DNA of 32,960 nt from Patescibacteria group bacterium (GTDB taxonomy: Bacteria; Patescibacteriota; Patescibacteriia; 2-12-FULL-60-25), in contig JAKLEH010000012.1 in assembly GCA_022703155.1 (NCBI GenBank), forward strand, positions 1-32,960. Direction: 5' to 3'. Both the position numbers and the translations under genes were made by a program. The notes beneath the pieces were generated by a model, which was given only the letters and a program-made list of their open reading frames with translations, had not been told where the DNA came from and searched no databases. Shown here piece by piece: positions 1 to 32,960 of this stretch (its first letter is position 1; each line of letters begins with the position of its first letter).

Positions 1-1535
1 CCGGCCGTGACCGTGCGCGTTTCGATGCGTTGCATGTCCAATGACAAAGGCGCGACGTTGATCCAAGCGGACAGCGTGGGGCCGTTGCTTTGGGGCGCTG
101 ACTGTACCATCTGCAAGTCCGATTCGGACGATTGGCCGAGTTTGTCCGTGGCCTTAACGTTTAGGTTGATGGTGTCGCTGATGTAGTCATTGCCCGTGAC
201 CGCCAGGTCGCAGGCTTGGACCGTGGTTTGTCCGTTGAACGCGCAGACGCGGCGCAAGTTGCCGTTGACCGCGACTTCCATTTTGGCCAAACCGTTTTTG
301 GCCATGGCTTGGGTGCGGATGGTTTTGCTGCGGTTGGCCATCAAATCCAAATCGTATTCGGCCCACAGCCAAGCGCTAACGCCGCTGTCGTTGATGACTG
401 GCGGGGTTGGGTTCAAATTGGCGGCGAAGGCTTTGTTCGTTGAGGTCGGGATTTGGTTGGCGGTTGAAATGGCGGTCTTGAAGCGGATGATTTGCGCCGG
501 CACGTAAGCTTTGCGTCCCAACGTGTCCGTAATAACGGCCGTGGCCAAGATGTTGGCATCGGCGGCGAAAGATTTGCCGTCCAGGTTGGCGGTGCAGGTT
601 TCGTTGGTTTTGCTGCCCGTGTAATCGCACGCGCCCACGAGTTTGCCGTCCGCCGACAATTCGATGCGTTTCAATCCCGCGTCCGATTGCGAACCGACGC
701 TGAATTTGGTGGCGATCGTCGGATCTTGCAACACCACGCTGGGTTCGGTCCATGACCAAAAATGCGTGCCGTTGGACGTGCCCACGATGGTTTGCAGCCT
801 GTCGGCGTCGAACGAAACTCCGTTGACCGCCAAGCGCACCAGTTTGGCCGTAAGCGGCAAGCCAGGCTGGTCGTTGTCAAAAGTCGAAACCGCTCCGCCC
901 AACCAAAAACTTCCGTCCAAGTCGACCGTGACTGTGGTGAAAAAATCGCGCGTCCGACCCAAGTCTTTGACGCCTTTGCCGTCGGTGGCGTAAATGTTCT
1001 TTCCGGTTACGATAAGCCACAGTTTCCCGTTGTAAGCGGCTTGTGATTTGTCCAAGATTTCTTTGGGCAGAATTCCGTTGTTTGTGATTTGCGGCACGCG
1101 ACCGAAACCCGCGCTCTTCTCGTTGGACGTTCCGACGCTAAGCGCGTTGCCGTAGAGCTCAACGTATTTGGTGGCCGTCTGGGCGCCTGGCGTATCCTGC
1201 ACGAAAACCACGTCCTTTACGTTGTTGACCACCCGATCCACGCGCGTCAATCCGGCGTCGCGTACGATACCCGTGATGTCGGTGGCTTTTCCCGATCCGA
1301 TTTTGCGCCAAACATGGCCGGTTTTGGTCAGGTCTTGGCCGTCGGTAAAGTAAAGCGTTCCGTTGACGTTGGCCATGGACCAAACCGGACGATTGGCGCG
1401 TAACGGCAATTGATACGACATGTCTTGCCAGACCGCGCTTGAGGCTTCAGCCGCGTTGGCCGCGGGCGCCACATACGCGAAAATGGCCAATAAGGCGAAA
1501 TATGCGACCATTAAGCGGAAAATGAATGAAAACAT
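1..1535 (-). CDS. Secreted propeller/Ig-repeat protein, C-terminus beyond window (paralogue of 6191-9943)
   Basis: The reading frame runs open from ATG at 1535 to the window edge (511 codons). It begins with a signal peptide: basic start, hydrophobic core, then an APAANA-A type cleavage site near residue 30. The following text (RPVWSMANVNGTLYFTDGQ, then GHVW) matches the same region of the 1250-residue protein at 6191-9943, so the two are paralogues. The N-terminal part is a run of WxV/GK-type strands, as in a beta-propeller. After it come at least two Ig-like repeats carrying the GLxRIEL...NG...C...C signature (Cys pairs in VGACDYTGSKTNETC and RRVCAFNGQTTVQAC). It probably acts outside the membrane in binding or adhesion; the ligand is unknown. 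No Shine-Dalgarno is visible, and the leader is about 50 nt from the promoter at 1593-1621. Certain as a gene; function is inferred. Confidence 0.85.
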   Translation of the reverse strand, partial: MFSFIFRLMVAYFALLAIFAYVAPAANAAEASSAVWQDMSYQLPLRANRPVWSMANVNGTLYFTDGQDLTKTGHVWRKIGSGKATDITGIVRDAGLTRVDRVVNNVKDVVFVQDTPGAQTATKYVELYGNALSVGTSNEKSAGFGRVPQITNNGILPKEILDKSQAAYNGKLWLIVTGKNIYATDGKGVKDLGRTRDFFTTVTVDLDGSFWLGGAVSTFDNDQPGLPLTAKLVRLAVNGVSFDADRLQTIVGTSNGTHFWSWTEPSVVLQDPTIATKFSVGSQSDAGLKRIELSADGKLVGACDYTGSKTNETCTANLDGKSFAADANILATAVITDTLGRKAYVPAQIIRFKTAISTANQIPTSTNKAFAANLNPTPPVINDSGVSAWLWAEYDLDLMANRSKTIRTQAMAKNGLAKMEVAVNGNLRRVCAFNGQTTVQACDLAVTGNDYISDTINLNVKATDKLGQSSESDLQMVQSAPQSNGPTLSAWINVAPLSLDMQRIETRTVTA

Positions 1536-6190: not shown

Positions 6191-9100
6191 TTACCGTTTG
6201 TTGATGCTCTTGTAGCCGGTCCAAGTGCGGTTGCCGAGCTGGTCGTACAGGTTGGCGCCGTATGAGACGCTGTCGGACGAATACGGACCGCCGGTGAACG
6301 AGCACGTGCTCGCGCCGTAACAGGTCTTGGCCGACTGGGCGTTGACCAGGATTTCGATGCGTTCGATGCCGTTGCCGTCCGAACCGTTGGCCGTGAAGGT
6401 CACGTTGCGGTCGCTCGTATAGCCGCCGTCCGCATCGCTGTAAACGCTGAGCGTGCCTTGCTGGTCCGTGGTGTTGGACGAGCCGGCAACGGTGATGGCG
6501 CGCGTGCCGGTCCAGAAGGTGGCGCCGCTTTCGGTCACGGCCTTGCCTTGGAGCGAGACGTTTTGTCCGGCGTAACCGGAGGTCGCGAGCGCGGCCGTGC
6601 ACGACGGAGCGTAACCCGAGACATAGCAGGTTTGGACCAAGTTGTTGTTGGCGTAAATTTCCATGCGCGACACGTTGGTCACGGGCCAGCCAGCGGTTAC
6701 GCTAACGCTTTCGTTGGCAACGTAGGAAGTTTTGTCCGGGGACAAGGAGAGCGTGAATGCGCCGGCGGGTTGGTCGTTGGTCACGTTCAGGTATTTGGTG
6801 TTGGACCAAACCGCGTTCTCGTAGATGTCCGTGACTTTGGCTTGCACCGGAATCTGCGTGGCGCCGGCCAGGTAATTGTTCAGGTACACGTTGGCCGAGC
6901 AAGTGTAGCTCGTGTTCCAGGAGGGCGCGGTGCAGGTGTTGACGATCGAGCCGTTGGCGTATACGTCGATGCGCTTGATGGTGTCGTTGTCCGTGGCGCT
7001 GGCTGAGATTTGGACCGTGTCCGTGCGTAAGTACGTGGTTTTGTCCGGACTGGCCGTAAGCGTGACCGTACCGTTTTGGTTGCCGCCGTCGTTAGTCATC
7101 AGGAAATATTGCGAGCTGGACCAAGTGGTGTTGCCGTAACGGTCCGTGGCGCGCGCCGAAATCTCAACATTGCTGCCGGCCGTGTTGTCGTAACCGTTGA
7201 CCGTAACGCTGCAGGATTGAGTGCCGTACGCGTCGCCGAATTCGCACGATTTGTAGCTCACGCCGCGCATGAAGATTTCCAAGCGGCGCAAACCGTCGCT
7301 GTCCGATCCGTAAGCCGTAATGTAGCGGCTGGTGTTGCGGTTCCAGTTGTTGTCGCTGGGCGAGACGGTCGTGTAGACCGTGGCGTTGCCGCTGCCCGAG
7401 CCGTTGCCCGTGATGCGCACGTAGAGCGTGCCCGAGGTCCAAGCCACGTTGCCGTTCAGGTCCGTGGCGCGCGCTTTGAGGTACACGCTCGAGCCCTCGC
7501 TGTAATTGCTGCCGTAGAGCGTGGTCTGGCACGACTGCTGCGAGTTGGCCACGTTGCCGAACGTGCATTGCTGCACCAGGTTGTCGTTGGCGTAAATCTC
7601 CAGCTTGTTCAATCCGTTGGAGCTTTGGCCGTAGACCGTGACCACTTGGGTCAAGTCGCGGCGCAACTCTTGGTTGTTGGTCACGTCCGCGCCGAACCAG
7701 GCGCTCAAGTTGCCGTTGTAATTATTGACGTTGGTGCCGTTGCTCGTGTTGTTGCTGAAGTTGAGGTTCAGGGTGTTGGAATTGGCTTGGCGGCCGTTCG
7801 CGTCCGTGGCCACCACGTACAGCGGCACGGTGGTGGTGTAGGGGAAAGACGACGCCCAGACCGACACGGCGCACGTTTGCGAACCGTAAGCCTGGTTGAA
7901 CGTGCAGGTGCGGTAGAGCGAGCCGTTGGCGTAAAGGTCCAAGCGGTTCAAGCCGTAAGTCGACATGCCCAAGGCTTTGACGTACGCGCTGGAATTGCTG
8001 CCGTTGCCGCTCCAGCTGTCCACGCTCAAATTGACCGAGATGTCGGACGAGTTGTTGGTGTTGTTCGTGTAAGTGTTATAGCCGTAATCCGCGATGTCGT
8101 AAGCGCCGAGCCAGGTCCAGCCGTCGCGGCCGTTCACGTCCACGGCGCGCACGTTGAACGCGATGGTGCTACCGTTCGGATAGTTGGTGTCCAAAGTGAA
8201 ATTGCAGGTGTTGTAGGTGCCGGAAACGTTGCACGTGTTCTTGACCGAACCGTTCACGTACAAATCCATGCGGCTCAAACCGGCCGGCGCAGAAGCGTTG
8301 GCCGTGACCGTCACGTTGGCGCCGCGCGTCAGCGTGTGCGCCGAGTTCGAAACCGTCATGTTGGCCGTGACCGGGCCGTCGTTGCCCGTCGCGGTCGTCG
8401 AATGGTCGACCGTGCCGTTGTGGAATTGGATGTTGCGCACCGGAACCCAAGCTACCAAGCCTTTGGCGCTGGTGAGTTTGGCGTTCACGGCCACGTCCGC
8501 GTCGTAAGCGTAACCCGTGCTTTCGATGAACATGACGCAAGTCACGTTGCTCTTGCTGTTCTTGCCGTCGCACACCTTTTGGCGCACGCCGTTGATGTAC
8601 AGTTCGATGCGTGTCAAGCCGTCATACGACTGGCCCACGACCGTGTATTTGGGATCGCTGATATTGTCCTGCCATGCCCAATCCGGCGTGAAGAACGCGC
8701 GGTAGGCGATGTTGTTCTTTTTGCCCGCGGCCGTAGTCAATTTTTCGTCGCTCGAGACCGTGCTGCCATTGGAGGTCGTCACGGTCGTCGGCGCCACATA
8801 CCCAGTGCCTTCGTCCACGCGTACCAATTTGGCGGTCAGGGGAGAGGTCGGAGCGGAGTTTCCAGCCGTTGACAAAGCACCACCGAGTAGGAAAGTTCCG
8901 TTGCCGTTGCCGGCGAGTGACAAGAACAGATCGTTAGTCTGTCCATAGGTCTGGAAGTTCGTGCCGTCGAAGCGGAACAAGTTCTTACCGCTCACGATCA
9001 TCCAGGATTTGCCGTTATAGCTGGCCAGTGCTCGGCTCCAGTCTAAAGACGGACCGCCGCTGATGTTGGTGTAATAATTCTTTATACTGTTACCGTCGAT

Positions 9101-9943
9101 GGCATAGACGCCGTAATTGCCTGCCGTATAACCGCCAACCGCCGCGTTTCCCATTAGCAGTACCTGGTTGCCGTTGCTGGCTATGAAGTTCACGCCCGTG
9201 TACCCAGTTTGTGTCAATTCGTTAAAACTGCCGTTGTAAAAATATACGCGGACTTTTTGGTAGGACGCGGACTCTACGATGGCAAAGATCCAGCCGCCTG
9301 ACGTCGGAACGACTTGAGGTGCGGTAAATACGCTTTGGCCGTCAGCCGGCGAGACATGGCGGATTGAATATGATTGGTTATAGCCCGTGTACGGCGTTAC
9401 CGGCAGGCTGATTTGCGACAGGGTGTTGGAAACCATGTTCCAGCTGAACACGCGGTTTTGCGTGGTCACAATCATCCATATGCCGTTCTTGCCCGTGATG
9501 GACGTCAAACCTTCGTTGGAATTCAAATAGCCGCGCAATAAGCTCGTGCGGTTGGTGTAACTGCCGTTGTACGACACGGCTTCGAATTGGTTGTCCGTGC
9601 GCGTCACGTTTTTGAGGAACACGACGGTTTGGCCGTCGCTGACCATGTCGTCAACGCGCGAGAGGCCGGCGTTGCGCACGTCCACCGTGATGTCGGTCAC
9701 GATAGAGCCGTCGGTTTTCCAAACGTGGCCGCCGGACCAGAGTTCCTGGCCGTCGGTCATGTACCAGTACGGTTCGGCGCGGACCACGGACCACACGGGG
9801 CGGTTTTCGCGGACCGTCAGTTTGTCTGAAATGTCGGTCCATTGCCACGGTCCGGTAGCGGACTGGGCCAAGGCCGAAGAGCCGAGGGCCAAAGAGGCCA
9901 CGGCGAACACGGCGATCAGTGATCGCGAAACAATGCGGTTCAT
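6191..9943 (-). CDS. Large secreted protein: beta-propeller-like N-terminus plus eight Ig-like repeats with paired cysteines
   Basis: 1250 residues from ATG 9943. The frame extends to 9970, but 9943 gives a proper signal peptide (NR..SR, hydrophobic core, SALAQS) and a ~38-nt leader. Residues ~30-390 contain repeated strand motifs (GGHVWKTDG, GKNGIWMIVTTQNRVFSW, GKSWMIVSGKNLFRFDG) like a beta-propeller. Residues ~396-1250 are eight tandem units of ~95-110 residues, each with G[LI]xR[LIM][DE][LIV]YxNG, then a Cys, 5-11 residues, a second Cys, and later AxDxxG. Every unit keeps the Cys pair, so each likely forms a disulfide-clipped beta-hairpin. It is extracellular, Asn/Ser/Thr-rich, with no LPXTG or C-terminal membrane helix. 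An adhesin or cell-surface binding role is inferred. A close paralogue sits at 1-1535. Confidence 0.88.
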   Translation of the reverse strand: MNRIVSRSLIAVFAVASLALGSSALAQSATGPWQWTDISDKLTVRENRPVWSVVRAEPYWYMTDGQELWSGGHVWKTDGSIVTDITVDVRNAGLSRVDDMVSDGQTVVFLKNVTRTDNQFEAVSYNGSYTNRTSLLRGYLNSNEGLTSITGKNGIWMIVTTQNRVFSWNMVSNTLSQISLPVTPYTGYNQSYSIRHVSPADGQSVFTAPQVVPTSGGWIFAIVESASYQKVRVYFYNGSFNELTQTGYTGVNFIASNGNQVLLMGNAAVGGYTAGNYGVYAIDGNSIKNYYTNISGGPSLDWSRALASYNGKSWMIVSGKNLFRFDGTNFQTYGQTNDLFLSLAGNGNGTFLLGGALSTAGNSAPTSPLTAKLVRVDEGTGYVAPTTVTTSNGSTVSSDEKLTTAAGKKNNIAYRAFFTPDWAWQDNISDPKYTVVGQSYDGLTRIELYINGVRQKVCDGKNSKSNVTCVMFIESTGYAYDADVAVNAKLTSAKGLVAWVPVRNIQFHNGTVDHSTTATGNDGPVTANMTVSNSAHTLTRGANVTVTANASAPAGLSRMDLYVNGSVKNTCNVSGTYNTCNFTLDTNYPNGSTIAFNVRAVDVNGRDGWTWLGAYDIADYGYNTYTNNTNNSSDISVNLSVDSWSGNGSNSSAYVKALGMSTYGLNRLDLYANGSLYRTCTFNQAYGSQTCAVSVWASSFPYTTTVPLYVVATDANGRQANSNTLNLNFSNNTSNGTNVNNYNGNLSAWFGADVTNNQELRRDLTQVVTVYGQSSNGLNKLEIYANDNLVQQCTFGNVANSQQSCQTTLYGSNYSEGSSVYLKARATDLNGNVAWTSGTLYVRITGNGSGSGNATVYTTVSPSDNNWNRNTSRYITAYGSDSDGLRRLEIFMRGVSYKSCEFGDAYGTQSCSVTVNGYDNTAGSNVEISARATDRYGNTTWSSSQYFLMTNDGGNQNGTVTLTASPDKTTYLRTDTVQISASATDNDTIKRIDVYANGSIVNTCTAPSWNTSYTCSANVYLNNYLAGATQIPVQAKVTDIYENAVWSNTKYLNVTNDQPAGAFTLSLSPDKTSYVANESVSVTAGWPVTNVSRMEIYANNNLVQTCYVSGYAPSCTAALATSGYAGQNVSLQGKAVTESGATFWTGTRAITVAGSSNTTDQQGTLSVYSDADGGYTSDRNVTFTANGSDGNGIERIEILVNAQSAKTCYGASTCSFTGGPYSSDSVSYGANLYDQLGNRTWTGYKSINKR

Positions 9944-9987
9944 ATAATGGTTGGATTGGTTGTAGGGCATCGCTTAAATAATGCACT

Positions 9988-17674: not shown

Positions 17675-17774
17675 TGTCATTTCGGTGAAATCGGAGCAGA
17701 GCCTGCCTTGAGCGAGCATCGAGTAGTTTGCGAGTCGAATGGGAGGTGTCTTCGAATCAGAACCGCTATCGAGA
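17675..17774. repeat. Dispersed repeat, copy 1 (upstream of adenylate cyclase)
   Basis: It begins TGTCAT..CG with ATCGGAGC and ends with a 32-nt tail (17743-17774) containing AGAACCGCTA. That tail matches 27 of 32 positions at 19843-19874 beyond the cyclase gene. Copy 1 has about 40 nt extra in the middle. It fills the whole gap between FecR and cyclase genes. Confidence 0.7.
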
Positions 17775-17776
17775 AT

Positions 17777-19786
17777 ATGTCCTACGAACTTAAAGGTTTG
17801 ACGCGCGGCAATGGCGATTGGCTTAAGCCGCTCGCCGTGGGCGGGGCCGTGGGCTTGGTCTGCGCCGTTTTCATGTGGGCCGGTCTCATGGAGTCGTGGA
17901 GCCATCGTGCCACAGACAAGATGTTTTTGCCGCGTCCGGCCGATGCGCGCATCGCGATCGTGGCCATCGACGACGCTTCCATCGCGCGTTTGGGGCGTTG
18001 GCCGTGGCCGCGCGGCACACACGCCAAAATCATCGACAACATCGCGGCCCAAAAACCGCGCGCCATCGGCTATGACGTGAATTTTCCAGAAACTTCGAAC
18101 CCGGCCGACGATGCGGCTTTGGCCCAGGCCGTAAAAAACGCGGGCAACGTGGTCATGCCCATTGAACTCGAGGTCAAGACCTCGTCCGACGCGGTGTATT
18201 TCGATTCCAGCAAAATGTTGCGGCCCATCCCGGAAATCTCGGGCGCAGCCGTGCGTTTGGGCCACGTCAACCAGCAGCCGGATAGCGACGGCGTGGTGCG
18301 GCGCGTGGCTTTGGCCGTAACGGCACCGGATAAATCGCGCATTCCGTCGTTCGCTTCGCAGGTCGCCGAAGTCGGGGGCACGAAAGTCGATCCCGCCGAA
18401 GGCACGGACGCGCAAAAACGTTTGATCATTTCCTATCCCGACGCGCCGGGCAAAGCGTTCGTGAATTGGTTTTCGGCCGCGGACGTGTTTGACGGGTCCG
18501 TGCGTTTGGACGCGCTCAAGGGCGCGTTCGTGCTGGTGGGGGCCACGGCTCCGGATTTGCACGATACGGTCATCACGCCCACTTCCAACGGCCGCAGCAT
18601 GCCGGGCGTGGAAGTGCATGCTTCGGTTTTGGACACGTTGTTGCAGCATCGTTTTTTGCGCGCGGTGCCGGCATGGTTCAATGCGCTGCTTTTGGCCGTC
18701 TTGGGCCTGTTGATGGGTTTGATCGTGCCGCGCATGCGCGCGCGCTGGTCCGTGCCCATGGCTTTAGCCATTTGGATAGGTTGGTTCGTGGCCGCGTTTT
18801 TACTGTTTGATCGCGGTTGGATTTTGGACGTGCTATGGGCCACCTTCACCCTGTTCATCGGATTCGCGGCCGTGGTCTTGGAGCGCCGCATAGCCTCCGA
18901 GCGCCAAAAACGCGAAATTCGCAACGCCTTTTCGCGTTATGTCTCGGGTTCGGTGGTCAAATCCATTTTGGATGATCCGTCGAAATTAAAACTAGGCGGC
19001 GAGCGCCGGCGCATGACCGTTCTGTTTTCAGACGTGCGCGGCTTCACCACCATCTCCGAAGGCCTGAAGCCTGAGCGTTTGGTGGAAATAATGAACACCT
19101 ACCTTTCGAGCATGACCGATGTGGTATTCGAAAACGGGGGAGTGCTGGACAAGTACATTGGCGACGCGGTCATGGCGTTTTGGAACGCGCCCTTCGACCA
19201 GCCGGACCACGCTGACCGGGCCGTCAAGACCGCACTCAATATGCTGGCCAAGCTCAAAGAGATGAACGCGGCGAACAAATTCGGCGATTTGCAGTTCAAG
19301 ATTGGTGTAGGCGTGAATACTGGGGATATGGTCGTGGGCAATATGGGGTCCGAAGACCGTTTCGATTACACGGTCATCGGCGACAGCGTCAACTTGGGTT
19401 CGCGCATGGAAAGCCTGACCAAAGAATACGGAGTGTCGTTGCTTGTTTCCGAGGCCACGCGCGAAGGGCTTAAGGAAAAATACCTGATGCGCGCCGTGGA
19501 CTTGGTGGCCGTCAAAGGCAAAAAAGAGCCGGTGCGCATGTACGAGGTCGTGAAACTTGAATCGGAAGCCTCGCCGGCCGACAACAAGCTGGTGGCGCGC
19601 TTCGGCGAAGCCATGCAAGCCTACAATGCCAAAGCCTTCGACAAGGCCGTGTCCATCACCGACGATCTGTTGTCCCAATTCCCGGACGACGGCCCGACCA
19701 AGGTGCTGAACGCGCGCGCCAAGCACTTCATGCAAGAACCCCCGCCCGCGGACTGGAACGGCGTGTGGGTGATGACGAAAAAGTGA
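17777..19786 (+). CDS. CHASE2-domain class III adenylate cyclase
   Basis: 669 residues; makes cAMP from ATP. One membrane helix at ~19-38. An extracytoplasmic CHASE2 domain at ~40-300 (IAIVAIDDASIARLGRWPWPR, AIGYDVNF, FVLVGATAPDLHDT, PGVEVHASVLDTLL). Three helices at ~300-368, then the catalytic domain. The metal-binding Asp are D419 in LFSDVRGFT and D463 in DKYIGDAV. K459 and T532 (in DYTVIGDSVN) are the ATP-selecting pair of the class IIIb type. N539 and R543 are the transition-state residues. All are present, so it should be active. The extension to 17708 is rejected because it lies in a repeat. No Shine-Dalgarno is seen. It is probably co-transcribed with the FecR gene. No cAMP receptor is visible in this window. 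Confidence 0.95.
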   Translation: MSYELKGLTRGNGDWLKPLAVGGAVGLVCAVFMWAGLMESWSHRATDKMFLPRPADARIAIVAIDDASIARLGRWPWPRGTHAKIIDNIAAQKPRAIGYDVNFPETSNPADDAALAQAVKNAGNVVMPIELEVKTSSDAVYFDSSKMLRPIPEISGAAVRLGHVNQQPDSDGVVRRVALAVTAPDKSRIPSFASQVAEVGGTKVDPAEGTDAQKRLIISYPDAPGKAFVNWFSAADVFDGSVRLDALKGAFVLVGATAPDLHDTVITPTSNGRSMPGVEVHASVLDTLLQHRFLRAVPAWFNALLLAVLGLLMGLIVPRMRARWSVPMALAIWIGWFVAAFLLFDRGWILDVLWATFTLFIGFAAVVLERRIASERQKREIRNAFSRYVSGSVVKSILDDPSKLKLGGERRRMTVLFSDVRGFTTISEGLKPERLVEIMNTYLSSMTDVVFENGGVLDKYIGDAVMAFWNAPFDQPDHADRAVKTALNMLAKLKEMNAANKFGDLQFKIGVGVNTGDMVVGNMGSEDRFDYTVIGDSVNLGSRMESLTKEYGVSLLVSEATREGLKEKYLMRAVDLVAVKGKKEPVRMYEVVKLESEASPADNKLVARFGEAMQAYNAKAFDKAVSITDDLLSQFPDDGPTKVLNARAKHFMQEPPPADWNGVWVMTKK

Positions 19787-26979: not shown

Positions 26980-27201
26980 TTAGGCCAGGGCGATGTTCAG
27001 GATCGCGGTAGCGAAAAAGAGGATGGCTATGCCGATGGTCGCGTAGAACAAGCCTTTTTCGAGGCCGCGTTTTGTCCTGAAGACCGTACCTTCGCCCCCG
27101 AAGGTAGCGCCCAAGCCGGTGCCGCGCTGTTGCAACAAAATGGCCGTAACCAGCAAGGCGGAAAGCGCGAGTTGGATGATGGGTAGGAGGTATTGACGCA
27201 T
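26980..27201 (-). CDS. secG: Preprotein translocase subunit SecG
   Basis: 73 residues, the usual SecG size. It has two membrane helices (LLPIIQLALSALLVTAILLQ and FYATIGIAILFFATAILNIALA) joined by the conserved LQQRGTGLGATFGG and FRTKRGLEK loop. SecG assists protein export through SecYEG. The start is ATG 27201; the extension to 27249 crosses the promoter and is rejected. The promoter's -10 ends 7 nt before ATG, so the mRNA is predicted to be leaderless. It is followed by the peptide-binding protein gene. Confidence 0.95.
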   Translation of the reverse strand: MRQYLLPIIQLALSALLVTAILLQQRGTGLGATFGGEGTVFRTKRGLEKGLFYATIGIAILFFATAILNIALA

Positions 27202-27402: not shown

Positions 27403-28116
27403 ATGGAGGAACGTCCTGGTTTTAGTAAAATTTGGACGGTTATAGGCATCGCCGTGGCGTTTGCCGTGTTGTTTGTAATCATCCTGTTCGTGCGACAAAC
27501 TTATTTTTATTATCGCGACATCAAACAAGGCAAAGGCGTGAACCCGGGCCAAATCAGCCGGACCAAAAAGTTGCATCCCAGCGTGGTGGCGGAAATCGCG
27601 CAGCTTAAACAGCTCGTATCCGGCACGGCCGACGTGCCGTTTTCCGGTCCGGCTTCGGCCACGCACGAAGTCGTGGAATTCGTTGATTTTGATTGCCCTA
27701 ATTGTTTGGCCATGGAATCCCAAGTGCGCGACCTGGCCAGCCAACGTCCCGACGTCAAAATCACCTATCGCGATTATCCGATTTTAGACCTGCATCCGGA
27801 CGCCATGGACGCGGCAAAAGCCGCGCGTTGCGTTTGGCGTCAAGGCGACGCGCGGACGTATTGGCGCTTCCGCGAAACCATGCTCGCCAACCAGGGCAAA
27901 TTGAACGCTGACAACCTTCGCGACTTCGCCGGCATGTTGAATTTGGATTTAGGCAGGTACGACGCGTGCGTTCGCGATCCGTCGGTTGAAGCGCAAGTCA
28001 ACCAATCCATTTCCGTGGGCGAGAACGCCGGCGTGGAGGGTACGCCCACCTTTTTCATCGACGGCATTAAAGTTGAAGGCGCCTTGCCGTTGGAATTGCT
28101 TGACCAACAGTTTTGA
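27403..28116 (+). CDS. Membrane-anchored DsbA-like thiol:disulfide oxidoreductase
   Basis: 237 residues. One membrane helix at ~10-31, then a thioredoxin-fold DsbA domain outside the membrane. The active site is C98-P-N-C101 in VDFDCPNCLAMES, and the cis-proline is in EGTPTFFIDG. The helical insert between them (DAAKAARCVWRQGDARTYWRF) is typical of DsbA. It would put disulfides into exported proteins. CPNC is a less common active-site dipeptide than CPHC. Its stop codon overlaps the start of the next gene (TGATG), and that gene encodes a 34-cysteine exported protein, its obvious substrate. The two Cys-paired Ig-repeat proteins at the left of the window are further candidate clients. No DsbB/VKOR partner is visible. 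Confidence 0.94.
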   Translation: MEERPGFSKIWTVIGIAVAFAVLFVIILFVRQTYFYYRDIKQGKGVNPGQISRTKKLHPSVVAEIAQLKQLVSGTADVPFSGPASATHEVVEFVDFDCPNCLAMESQVRDLASQRPDVKITYRDYPILDLHPDAMDAAKAARCVWRQGDARTYWRFRETMLANQGKLNADNLRDFAGMLNLDLGRYDACVRDPSVEAQVNQSISVGENAGVEGTPTFFIDGIKVEGALPLELLDQQF

Positions 28117-30248
28117 TGTTTATGCGCAATTTCGGAAAAAATATCGTAAAATTCCTGGTCGCCTGGCTGGCCGTACAGGCGCTCTTGTGGCCCGCCGCAC
28201 CGGCCTTGGCCGTGTGGGATAAAAACAATAATAACGATAGGCCTTTCGCCAACGACGTTCCTAACATCGGCAAATATTGCGGTTGGACGACCGTTTTAGC
28301 CGGAGGGGCCTCGGCAAACGACAGGTGGTATCAGTGCATGACCGCATGTAGGAACGTTGACCCGGAATATTTCAAAGAAGAGACCAAAGCCAAAGTTTGG
28401 GAAAGCGCCTGTTGCCATTTGTCCTCCGTGCCTCGTATTTTTTTCACTTCCCCCTTGGTGGCCTGGGCTTTGATTATAGACCAAGCGATAGCCGGTACGG
28501 ATGAGGCCGAATCTTTGAACAAAAAATGCAAAGAAGCGAAATTCCATACCGGAGGCGGAAAATGCATTTTACATGAAGATCGGCCTGACGGGGTCAAGGA
28601 TTGTTGTTATGACAATTCCGAAAGGGACATTACGGGAATGGGCGAGAAATGCAAAATCAAAACTTACACAGGTTCCGATAGCTGTAAGGCGGACGGAGTT
28701 TTTTCGTGCTGCGTGTGCATTGGTACGGACGGTAAACGCGCCATCGCTGCCGGAGGCGAGCCTAAAAACTGCAAGAGTTGCACTCAGTTATGTGAAGACG
28801 CCAAAAGCAACGGCGTGGGCGCTGGCGGCAAGGTGAGTTATCAGGACGTGGCGTTCACGGCCGGCGGATGCAACGAGACTGCGGGTTCGTTCACTGGCAT
28901 GACGTCCAAGCAATACGGGACTTACAAGGCGGGCCAAAGGAAACGCGGCGAGGACGTGAACGTATTTTGTTGGACGGCCAAGGAGTGCCAAGACGCCAAT
29001 GGGAAATTTCGCGCCGGCGAAGGTTGCAAGAACAAAGGCAAGGAGGCGCAGGGCAAATGCGAAGCGCCGGAGCCGGATTATGAGTTGCAGTATCCGGTCA
29101 TGGGCGTGACGTCCATCAAGGGTTTGCGCAGTTTTATAGGTTTGATGTTTACGGCCGGCATCGCCTTTGCGGTTATCGCCGCGGCCATAGCCTTCGTGTA
29201 CGGCGCGTTCAAATACATGGTTTCGGCCATCAGTTCGCAAATCAGCCGGGCCAAAGAGACCATGATCGACGCGCTCATCGGCATGGTTTTGGCGCTAGGG
29301 TCGTACGTGATTCTGGCCAACGTGGCGCCTAATACCTTAAAACTCAATGCGTTCAAAATCGACATGATCAACAGGATGTCGTTTTACAGCGTAGTTTACT
29401 GCAGCGACATTACGGCCGGCCCCAAAGAGGCCGCTATCACATTCCAAGATGCCGGTGACCCCGTCACGCCTAAATCCTTCGACATTACCCAAGGTTACAC
29501 CATTCCCTTGGATAAAACAGTCTGTGGCAACGAATACTTCATCAGCGGCGGAAACCAAGACAGCATTTGCATGGGCAAAACCTGCGAAAAAGGAGCGAAA
29601 TGTTTGAATTGCGCCTCGGCCTTGGCTTCGGGTTGCAAAACAAAATCACCGCACGAATTCAAATGCACCAACGCCCGCATGGGGGGCAACGTAACGTCTC
29701 CGGCCAAATGGAAGCCGGATAAGATTTGGTTGGAGTGGTACGGCGTCAGCAAACAAAGTTTGAAATTTTATAACTTCAGCATTGACGAATTTAACTTTGC
29801 CTCAGAACAGGTCGCTTCGGTGGGCGCGTCCAACGCGAGTGGGTTTGCGAGCTCATATCGTTTCACCAAAGCCAATCCTGAGTACATAAAGAAGTATTTT
29901 GAAGACAAGGAAAAAGAAGGCTATAGGAGCGGCGGCATGTTGCTTATATTGGCGATAATCAACACTGACATCGTCGGTGCGGACCAATATGTTGTGTTCG
30001 GCAAAAGTCCGGTTGACGGCAAATGCACGTGGGTGGACATGTATTTCGGCGGAGCCGTGAATTGTCTTACGCCCGGAGGCTTCCCGTGCACCTTGAGCGG
30101 CAACTTGGACGATATGTATAAAAACAACCGCAAAGATTACGATTGGGTGGTTTCGCATGCAATCCTCAAAGACGATTTGTCCGAGGAGAGCATCGACAAA
30201 ATCGGTGCTTGCGACATCAAAATCAATGAGCAGGGTCTAGGTAACTGA
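28116..30248 (+). CDS. Exported 34-cysteine protein with VirB2-like two-helix membrane segment
   Basis: 710 residues from ATG 28116, which overlaps the upstream stop; ATG 28122 is an alternative. A signal peptide ends about ALWPAAPALA. Residues ~50-320 contain 22 Cys in closely spaced pairs (CMTAC, SACC, DCC, SCCVC, CKSC). Two hydrophobic helices follow (~340-366 and ~383-403) separated by a short YMVSAISSQISRAKETMIDALIG loop, the pattern of TrbC/VirB2-like pilin segments that I associate with Patescibacteria. Residues ~410-710 are exposed again with 12 Cys. It is coupled to the DsbA-like gene, so its folding probably needs that enzyme. A role in a surface structure or pilus-like channel is inference; no VirB4 or other secretion ATPase is in the window. 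Confidence 0.85.
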   Translation: MFMRNFGKNIVKFLVAWLAVQALLWPAAPALAVWDKNNNNDRPFANDVPNIGKYCGWTTVLAGGASANDRWYQCMTACRNVDPEYFKEETKAKVWESACCHLSSVPRIFFTSPLVAWALIIDQAIAGTDEAESLNKKCKEAKFHTGGGKCILHEDRPDGVKDCCYDNSERDITGMGEKCKIKTYTGSDSCKADGVFSCCVCIGTDGKRAIAAGGEPKNCKSCTQLCEDAKSNGVGAGGKVSYQDVAFTAGGCNETAGSFTGMTSKQYGTYKAGQRKRGEDVNVFCWTAKECQDANGKFRAGEGCKNKGKEAQGKCEAPEPDYELQYPVMGVTSIKGLRSFIGLMFTAGIAFAVIAAAIAFVYGAFKYMVSAISSQISRAKETMIDALIGMVLALGSYVILANVAPNTLKLNAFKIDMINRMSFYSVVYCSDITAGPKEAAITFQDAGDPVTPKSFDITQGYTIPLDKTVCGNEYFISGGNQDSICMGKTCEKGAKCLNCASALASGCKTKSPHEFKCTNARMGGNVTSPAKWKPDKIWLEWYGVSKQSLKFYNFSIDEFNFASEQVASVGASNASGFASSYRFTKANPEYIKKYFEDKEKEGYRSGGMLLILAIINTDIVGADQYVVFGKSPVDGKCTWVDMYFGGAVNCLTPGGFPCTLSGNLDDMYKNNRKDYDWVVSHAILKDDLSEESIDKIGACDIKINEQGLGN

Positions 30249-30349: not shown

Positions 30350-32960
<2,611 letters not shown>

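Follow-up and report, generated by a model that had tools for sequence, protein, structure and literature searches.

How Patescibacteria, a large group of tiny bacteria that are probably attached to hosts, build the surface machinery with which they touch these hosts is an open question. At the locus described here, the gene for a DsbA-like thiol enzyme abuts that for a protein with 34 cysteines, and a preliminary description of this DNA had read the two as an enzyme and its dedicated client. The window, that is, the whole stretch of 32,960 nucleotides that was analysed, is contig C4 of a 1.23-Mb genome that is 98% complete. The pair is flanked in the window by a gene resembling those for oligopeptide-binding proteins (SBP-like), by a divergent upstream secG-like gene outside the pair (26980..27201, minus strand), and by its conserved downstream neighbour uvrA (30350..32959, plus strand), which is cut by the window end. 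As had been described, no secretion ATPase adjoins the pair. Elsewhere, the window encodes two related secreted proteins with repeated GLxRIELYxNG-like units (6191-9970 and 3-1535 (-)), one of 1259 aa with 16 cysteines and the other of 511 or more aa and cut by the window. A membrane protein with a C-terminal part that by eye resembles adenylate/guanylate cyclases (VLFSDVRGFT; 17708-19786, plus strand) was also found in this reduced Patescibacterial genome.

The dsbA-like gene (27403..28116, plus strand), which has orthologues in the family, encodes a protein of 237 aa consisting of an N-terminal transmembrane anchor and a Thioredoxin_4/DSBA domain. The anchor (about aa 7-36; 27421..27510) is predicted from hydropathy, and the hydrophobic N-terminus is conserved in relatives. 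The protein has the hallmarks of the DsbA family, namely a Pfam domain above cut-off (Thioredoxin_4, 6.8e-22, 78.9 bits; DSBA, 1.2e-18, 68 bits), a CxxC active site (CPNC, aa 98-101; 27694..27705), and a proline at the cis-Pro column. Solved structures among its best matches by sequence profile are 3gyk_A, 4xvw_A (DsbA-like protein), 4gxz_A (suppression of copper sensitivity protein) and 3eu3_A (BdbD), with values from 1.8e-32 to 5.9e-19; we know of no pilin-module client for any of them. The stop codon of this gene (TGA, 28114-28116) overlaps the start codon of the next one (ATG, 28116-28118) in the sequence TGATG (28114..28118), as noted before for these two reading frames, and translational coupling is likely.

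The second gene (28116..30248, plus strand) encodes a protein of 710 aa. A signal-peptide-like N-terminus (aa 1-32, ending PALA|V; 28116..28211), recognized by sequence and hydropathy, is followed by two flanks on either side of a two-helix hairpin (aa 336-406; 29121..29333). Both flanks are predicted to be extracytoplasmic. The N-side flank (28212..29120) includes the invariant cysteines C285, C291, C304 and C315, and the C-side flank (29334..30245) the invariant C429, C470, C485, C490 and C496. Our count agrees with the earlier one: 22 cysteines precede the hairpin, 12 follow it and none lies within it. The cysteine content of 4.8%, versus 0.83% in the remaining genes of this stretch, is far above expectation, as a protein of 710 aa should have about 6 cysteines (Poisson p about 2e-15). 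The full-length model of this protein has a mean pLDDT of 62 and a pTM of 0.40, and a fold search with it returned nothing from the PDB at E <= 0.001. Neither this search nor one with a model of the hairpin was informative, so that the flanks matched no known fold, and sequence profiles of the client or its hairpin gave nothing significant against the PDB.

To define how far the two genes belong together, we examined their arrangement, hereafter locus A, in related genomes. All 41 family genomes examined have DsbA-like genes, and 23 of them a near-full-length Cys-rich orthologue, with dsbA directly upstream in 19 of these 23. A contig ends in or beside the pair in three of the 23 (G004, G027 and G032), and in G059 the client adjoins a second locus (locus B, see below) while dsbA remains before uvrA. 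The usual order in the family is a divergent SBP-like and secG-like gene, then dsbA, the Cys-rich protein and uvrA. Counted from the enzyme, a pilin-module match lies directly downstream of 29 of 36 locus-A dsbA genes in the family; in two further cases a contig end separates the pair, and five genes have no client match, four of these being located directly before uvrA. The arrangement extends to other families of the class, where a pilin-module protein is encoded directly behind dsbA at 16 of the 40 loci that were fetched (uvrA in view in 13 of the 16). A phylum-wide sample contained no DsbA of locus-A grade (E <= 1e-54) outside the class, where more distant forms may exist. Of 45 locus-A pairs, 37 have their genes spaced by −20 to +15 nt. 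The preliminary description had asked whether the Cys-rich protein is common in genomes lacking a DsbA-like gene; none of the genomes with a full-length client lacks one. Although the adjacency of the two genes does not by itself prove catalysis, the recurrence of the pairing across many genomes makes it very likely that the DsbA and the Cys-rich protein work as enzyme and client. The idea of a dedicated client finds good support in this class-wide adjacency, the close spacing, a second dsbA lineage and the parity of the cysteines.

Of the 1078 cysteines in 37 closed locus-A partners, the hairpin accounts for only 3. The number of cysteines is even in the C-side flank of 34 of 36 proteins, nearly all with between 8 and 38 (p 1e-8), and in the N-side flank of 31 of 34 (p 4e-7), these p-values being too small since the sequences are related. 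Control ORFs from the same loci showed 48 even and 34 odd counts. Since the counts vary widely yet are even on each flank separately, changing in steps of two as intra-flank pairing would predict, the client cysteines very probably form disulfides within their own flank. Two class-level partners (L196 and L202) have only 2 cysteines and still lie behind a CxxC DsbA. The L196 partner, a 320-aa ORF downstream of L196:3430-4236, ends in a stretch that by eye resembles a peptidoglycan peptidase.

The enzyme side of the pair is more variable. Across 132 DsbA relatives the nucleophilic cysteine, the cis-Pro and a second cysteine pair (C143 and C189) are kept, the exception for the nucleophile being L148. 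This locus-B relative (L148:2712-3437, minus strand) has neither active-site cysteine (SETS) and is still located 5' of a pilin-module gene. The second cysteine of the CxxC motif is replaced (CxxS/T) in 23 of 51 locus-A DsbAs, 4 of 57 others and none of the 14 locus-B DsbAs that keep the nucleophile. CxxC is thus not universal among locus-A orthologues; about half retain it, as does the window enzyme with its CPNC. Within locus A, the best DsbA tree requires 12 changes between the two states, and its well-supported branches hold eight independent pairs that differ in this residue. The enrichment of CxxS/T at locus A has a Fisher p-value of 5e-6, uncorrected for relatedness, and a phylogenetically paired test did not reach significance because the locus-A genes cluster on the tree. 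The repeated loss of the resolving cysteine, together with retention of the nucleophile, suggests that partner DsbAs act as isomerases or covalent chaperones.

The hairpin consists of two hydrophobic segments (aa 336-372 and 381-406). When the two-helix part was modelled alone, as the preliminary description had advised, it was predicted with high confidence as two long helices (mean pLDDT 80), and a fold search with this model matched only generic helical proteins. The resemblance to VirB2 that had been proposed holds at the level of the family but not for the window segment by itself. The latter scores 10.3 bits (hmmscan) or 14.1 bits (genome search) against T4SS_pilin (PF18895), below the gathering cut-off of 26.6 bits, whereas 75 of 79 aligned module relatives match PF18895 (best 4.6e-15). 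A paralogue on contig C15 matches the window protein at 1.4e-16 and itself passes the cut-off with 30.1 bits. Through this paralogue and the relatives, the window hairpin can be assigned by sequence homology to accepted T4SS_pilin members, and it is among the best-conserved parts of the client. With 710 aa and flanks of about 300 aa on both sides of the hairpin, the client is unlike the small VirB2/TrbC conjugative pilin subunits. It had been called larger than any pilin; this holds against the classical pilins, yet the present genome routinely encodes large proteins with a pilin module, of up to 1956 aa. The genome has at least 8 further ORFs with a T4SS_pilin module, including proteins of 400 aa with a C39-peptidase domain, 886 aa with 31 cysteines, 638 aa with a Big_5 domain, and 1956 aa with TIG repeats and 78 cysteines, the last read to the contig end. 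This 1956-aa ORF (G000:C33:2-5869; L018), open at the contig end, has four TIG/IPT stretches and adjoins the 638-aa Big_5 protein, apparently as part of a second family of giant surface proteins that carry the pilin module.

A second association of dsbA with pilin modules was found at locus B, where a PD40 propeller protein, a dsbA of a different clade and one to four pilin-module proteins are commonly followed by a radA-like gene. The locus-B dsbA genes form a separate, well-supported clade (SH-aLRT 96). The pilin-module proteins of this locus (G000:C15:1-5331, L015; L140-L154) carry C39-peptidase or other C-terminal domains. In the genome of the window, locus B begins at a contig start, and its dsbA is therefore missing or unassembled.

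Since VirB4- and VirB6-like genes had been suggested as targets elsewhere in the genome, we also searched the whole genome and read selected stretches of it. Contig C53 carries a PrgI above cut-off, a TrsD relative (1.5e-7) and a fragment of VirB4, truncated where the contig ends, which matches a VirB4-like model at 8.3e-32. No VirB4 exceeded the cut-off in a TIGR00929 search, and the gene was found instead through PrgI and other NCBIfam models. The same contig encodes a polytopic protein of 984 aa, a candidate VirB6; as it has no Pfam or NCBIfam match, this designation rests on topology and position. Two VirD4-like coupling ATPases are encoded on contigs C13 and C32. Judged by these homologies, a type IV secretion system (T4SS) is present in the genome, away from the dsbA-client pair; in this the client gene differs from VirB2/TrbC pilin genes, which would be expected beside virB4 or other T4SS genes. 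The genome has three other Thioredoxin_4 genes. One of these, on another contig, encodes a VKOR-DsbA fusion that is a likely reoxidant.

The client may serve the T4SS as a subunit or decorate it, since its hairpin is of the T4SS_pilin family and the genome encodes a T4SS core. That it joins or decorates this system or another contact organelle is the weakest step of our explanation, and we put it forward tentatively, at somewhat below even chances. Just as plausible is a hairpin that is a mere membrane anchor inherited from pilins, in a free-standing disulfide-rich adhesin or scaffold that is processed by the DsbA and has no connection to the T4SS. The position of the gene beside uvrA and away from the T4SS core on C53 fits such a protein, as do flanks of hundreds of residues that have no precedent in pilins and the finding that other proteins of this genome have the same hairpin fused to domains of the peptidase C39, Big_5 and TIG types. 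It fits less well with the hairpin matches to T4SS_pilin in 75 of 79 relatives, with the strong conservation of the hairpin, and with the presence in the phylum of a T4SS and pilin arrays that one species is reported to require for its epibiotic growth (PMC12102498).

Other alternatives concern the relation between the two proteins. The DsbA could be a general-purpose enzyme that stands before the Cys-rich gene through an old gene order, the secG-dsbA-uvrA neighbourhood, and the genomes that keep dsbA-uvrA without the client, as well as DsbA relatives of the same type beside other genes, are consistent with this. Nevertheless, it is improbable in view of the overlapping or nearly overlapping genes in 37 of 45 pairs, a genome that encodes further DsbAs and a VKOR-DsbA as well, and CxxS/T variants that are incapable of an ordinary oxidase role; a purely general function is further disfavoured because the arrangement recurs in a second dsbA lineage and locus. 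Slightly less probable still is a partner DsbA that is decaying or a non-redox structural partner, comparable to what is described for TraF in F plasmids, with the catalytic site of the window protein as a relic. The recurrent loss of the second cysteine at locus A and the locus-B copy L148 point in that direction, but about half of the locus-A enzymes are still CxxC and all examined copies at this locus keep the nucleophilic cysteine, the cis-Pro and the second cysteine pair, where decay predicts otherwise. Finally, the high density of cysteines and the presence of CxxC pairs in the client could indicate binding of metal or haem instead of disulfides. The CxxCH haem motif is absent from the window client and was found once, in a single partner; the flanks are predicted to be exported and the client is linked to a thiol enzyme. 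We rejected haem or metal binding on the missing CxxCH motifs and the mostly even cysteine counts per side, and regard it as very improbable.

The reading that we prefer, and consider probable from the sequence comparisons, is that a membrane-anchored DsbA-like thiol enzyme and its dedicated client, a Sec-exported, hairpin-bearing, disulfide-rich surface protein, are encoded by a two-gene unit that is conserved in one class of Patescibacteria. The client would be exported by Sec and anchored, or later assembled, through its T4SS_pilin-type hairpin, which would lie in the membrane with both large Cys-rich flanks outside. The neighbouring DsbA would form or, above all, correctly rearrange the disulfides of these flanks, up to 11 on the N-side and 6 on the C-side of the window client. 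Its oxidising power would probably come from the VKOR-DsbA fusion. In the CxxS/T lineages, the enzyme could do no more than shuffle disulfides or hold the client by a mixed disulfide, and net oxidation would have to come from other DsbAs. A bolder version, in which a giant disulfide-rich T4SS pilin has a dedicated monothiol (CxxS/T) DsbA as its isomerase or covalent chaperone and mixed-disulfide retention controls host-contact assembly, is unlikely but conceivable; to our knowledge, this mode of retention is so far known from eukaryotic AGR2/ERp44-like proteins.

The VirB2-like pilin arrays and T4SS core of Patescibacteria have been published, with essentiality reported in one species (PMC12102498). 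They resemble the present system in the two-helix hairpin of the same Pfam family (PF18895), multiple divergent copies per genome and a T4SS core of PrgI, TrsD and VirB4. Here, however, the hairpin is embedded between two Cys-rich flanks in a protein of 710 aa, whose gene is located directly behind dsbA on another contig than the virB4 fragment. A text search of that publication (PMC12102498) found no mention of thioredoxin, Dsb or disulfide, and a literature search, thin on subscription journals, yielded no work that connects the pilins of Patescibacteria to disulfide enzymes. By analogy, the best working precedent for the pair is the T4SS of the F plasmid with its TrbB and TraF, where the Cys-rich TraN, TraU and TraH are putative TrbB clients (PMC11315126). 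There too, the system itself encodes a disulfide isomerase of the thioredoxin fold for Cys-rich components of the envelope (TraN has 22 cysteines), and one thioredoxin-fold partner, TraF, lacks CxxC. The F system differs in that its enzyme is TrbB/TraF and its putative clients are not the pilin, whereas the enzyme of the present pair belongs to the Thioredoxin_4/DsbA type and its gene abuts that of the client. A parallel for the CxxS/T members only is AGR2, a CxxS protein disulfide isomerase that is needed for the Cys-rich secreted mucin MUC2 through mixed disulfides (PMC10183570). These are eukaryotic ER proteins that share no family with the present enzyme beyond the fold, and the window enzyme is CPNC.

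The even numbers of cysteines on each flank and the repeated loss of the resolving cysteine in the partner DsbA are the new elements here. The repeated conversion of DsbA to CxxS/T beside one type of client would represent a natural experiment in the change from oxidase to isomerase or covalent chaperone. For the biology of Patescibacteria, the pair, which possibly acts on machinery touching other cells, names a specific exported protein family and its probable maturing enzyme, and it makes a role of disulfide chemistry in the assembly of such machinery testable.
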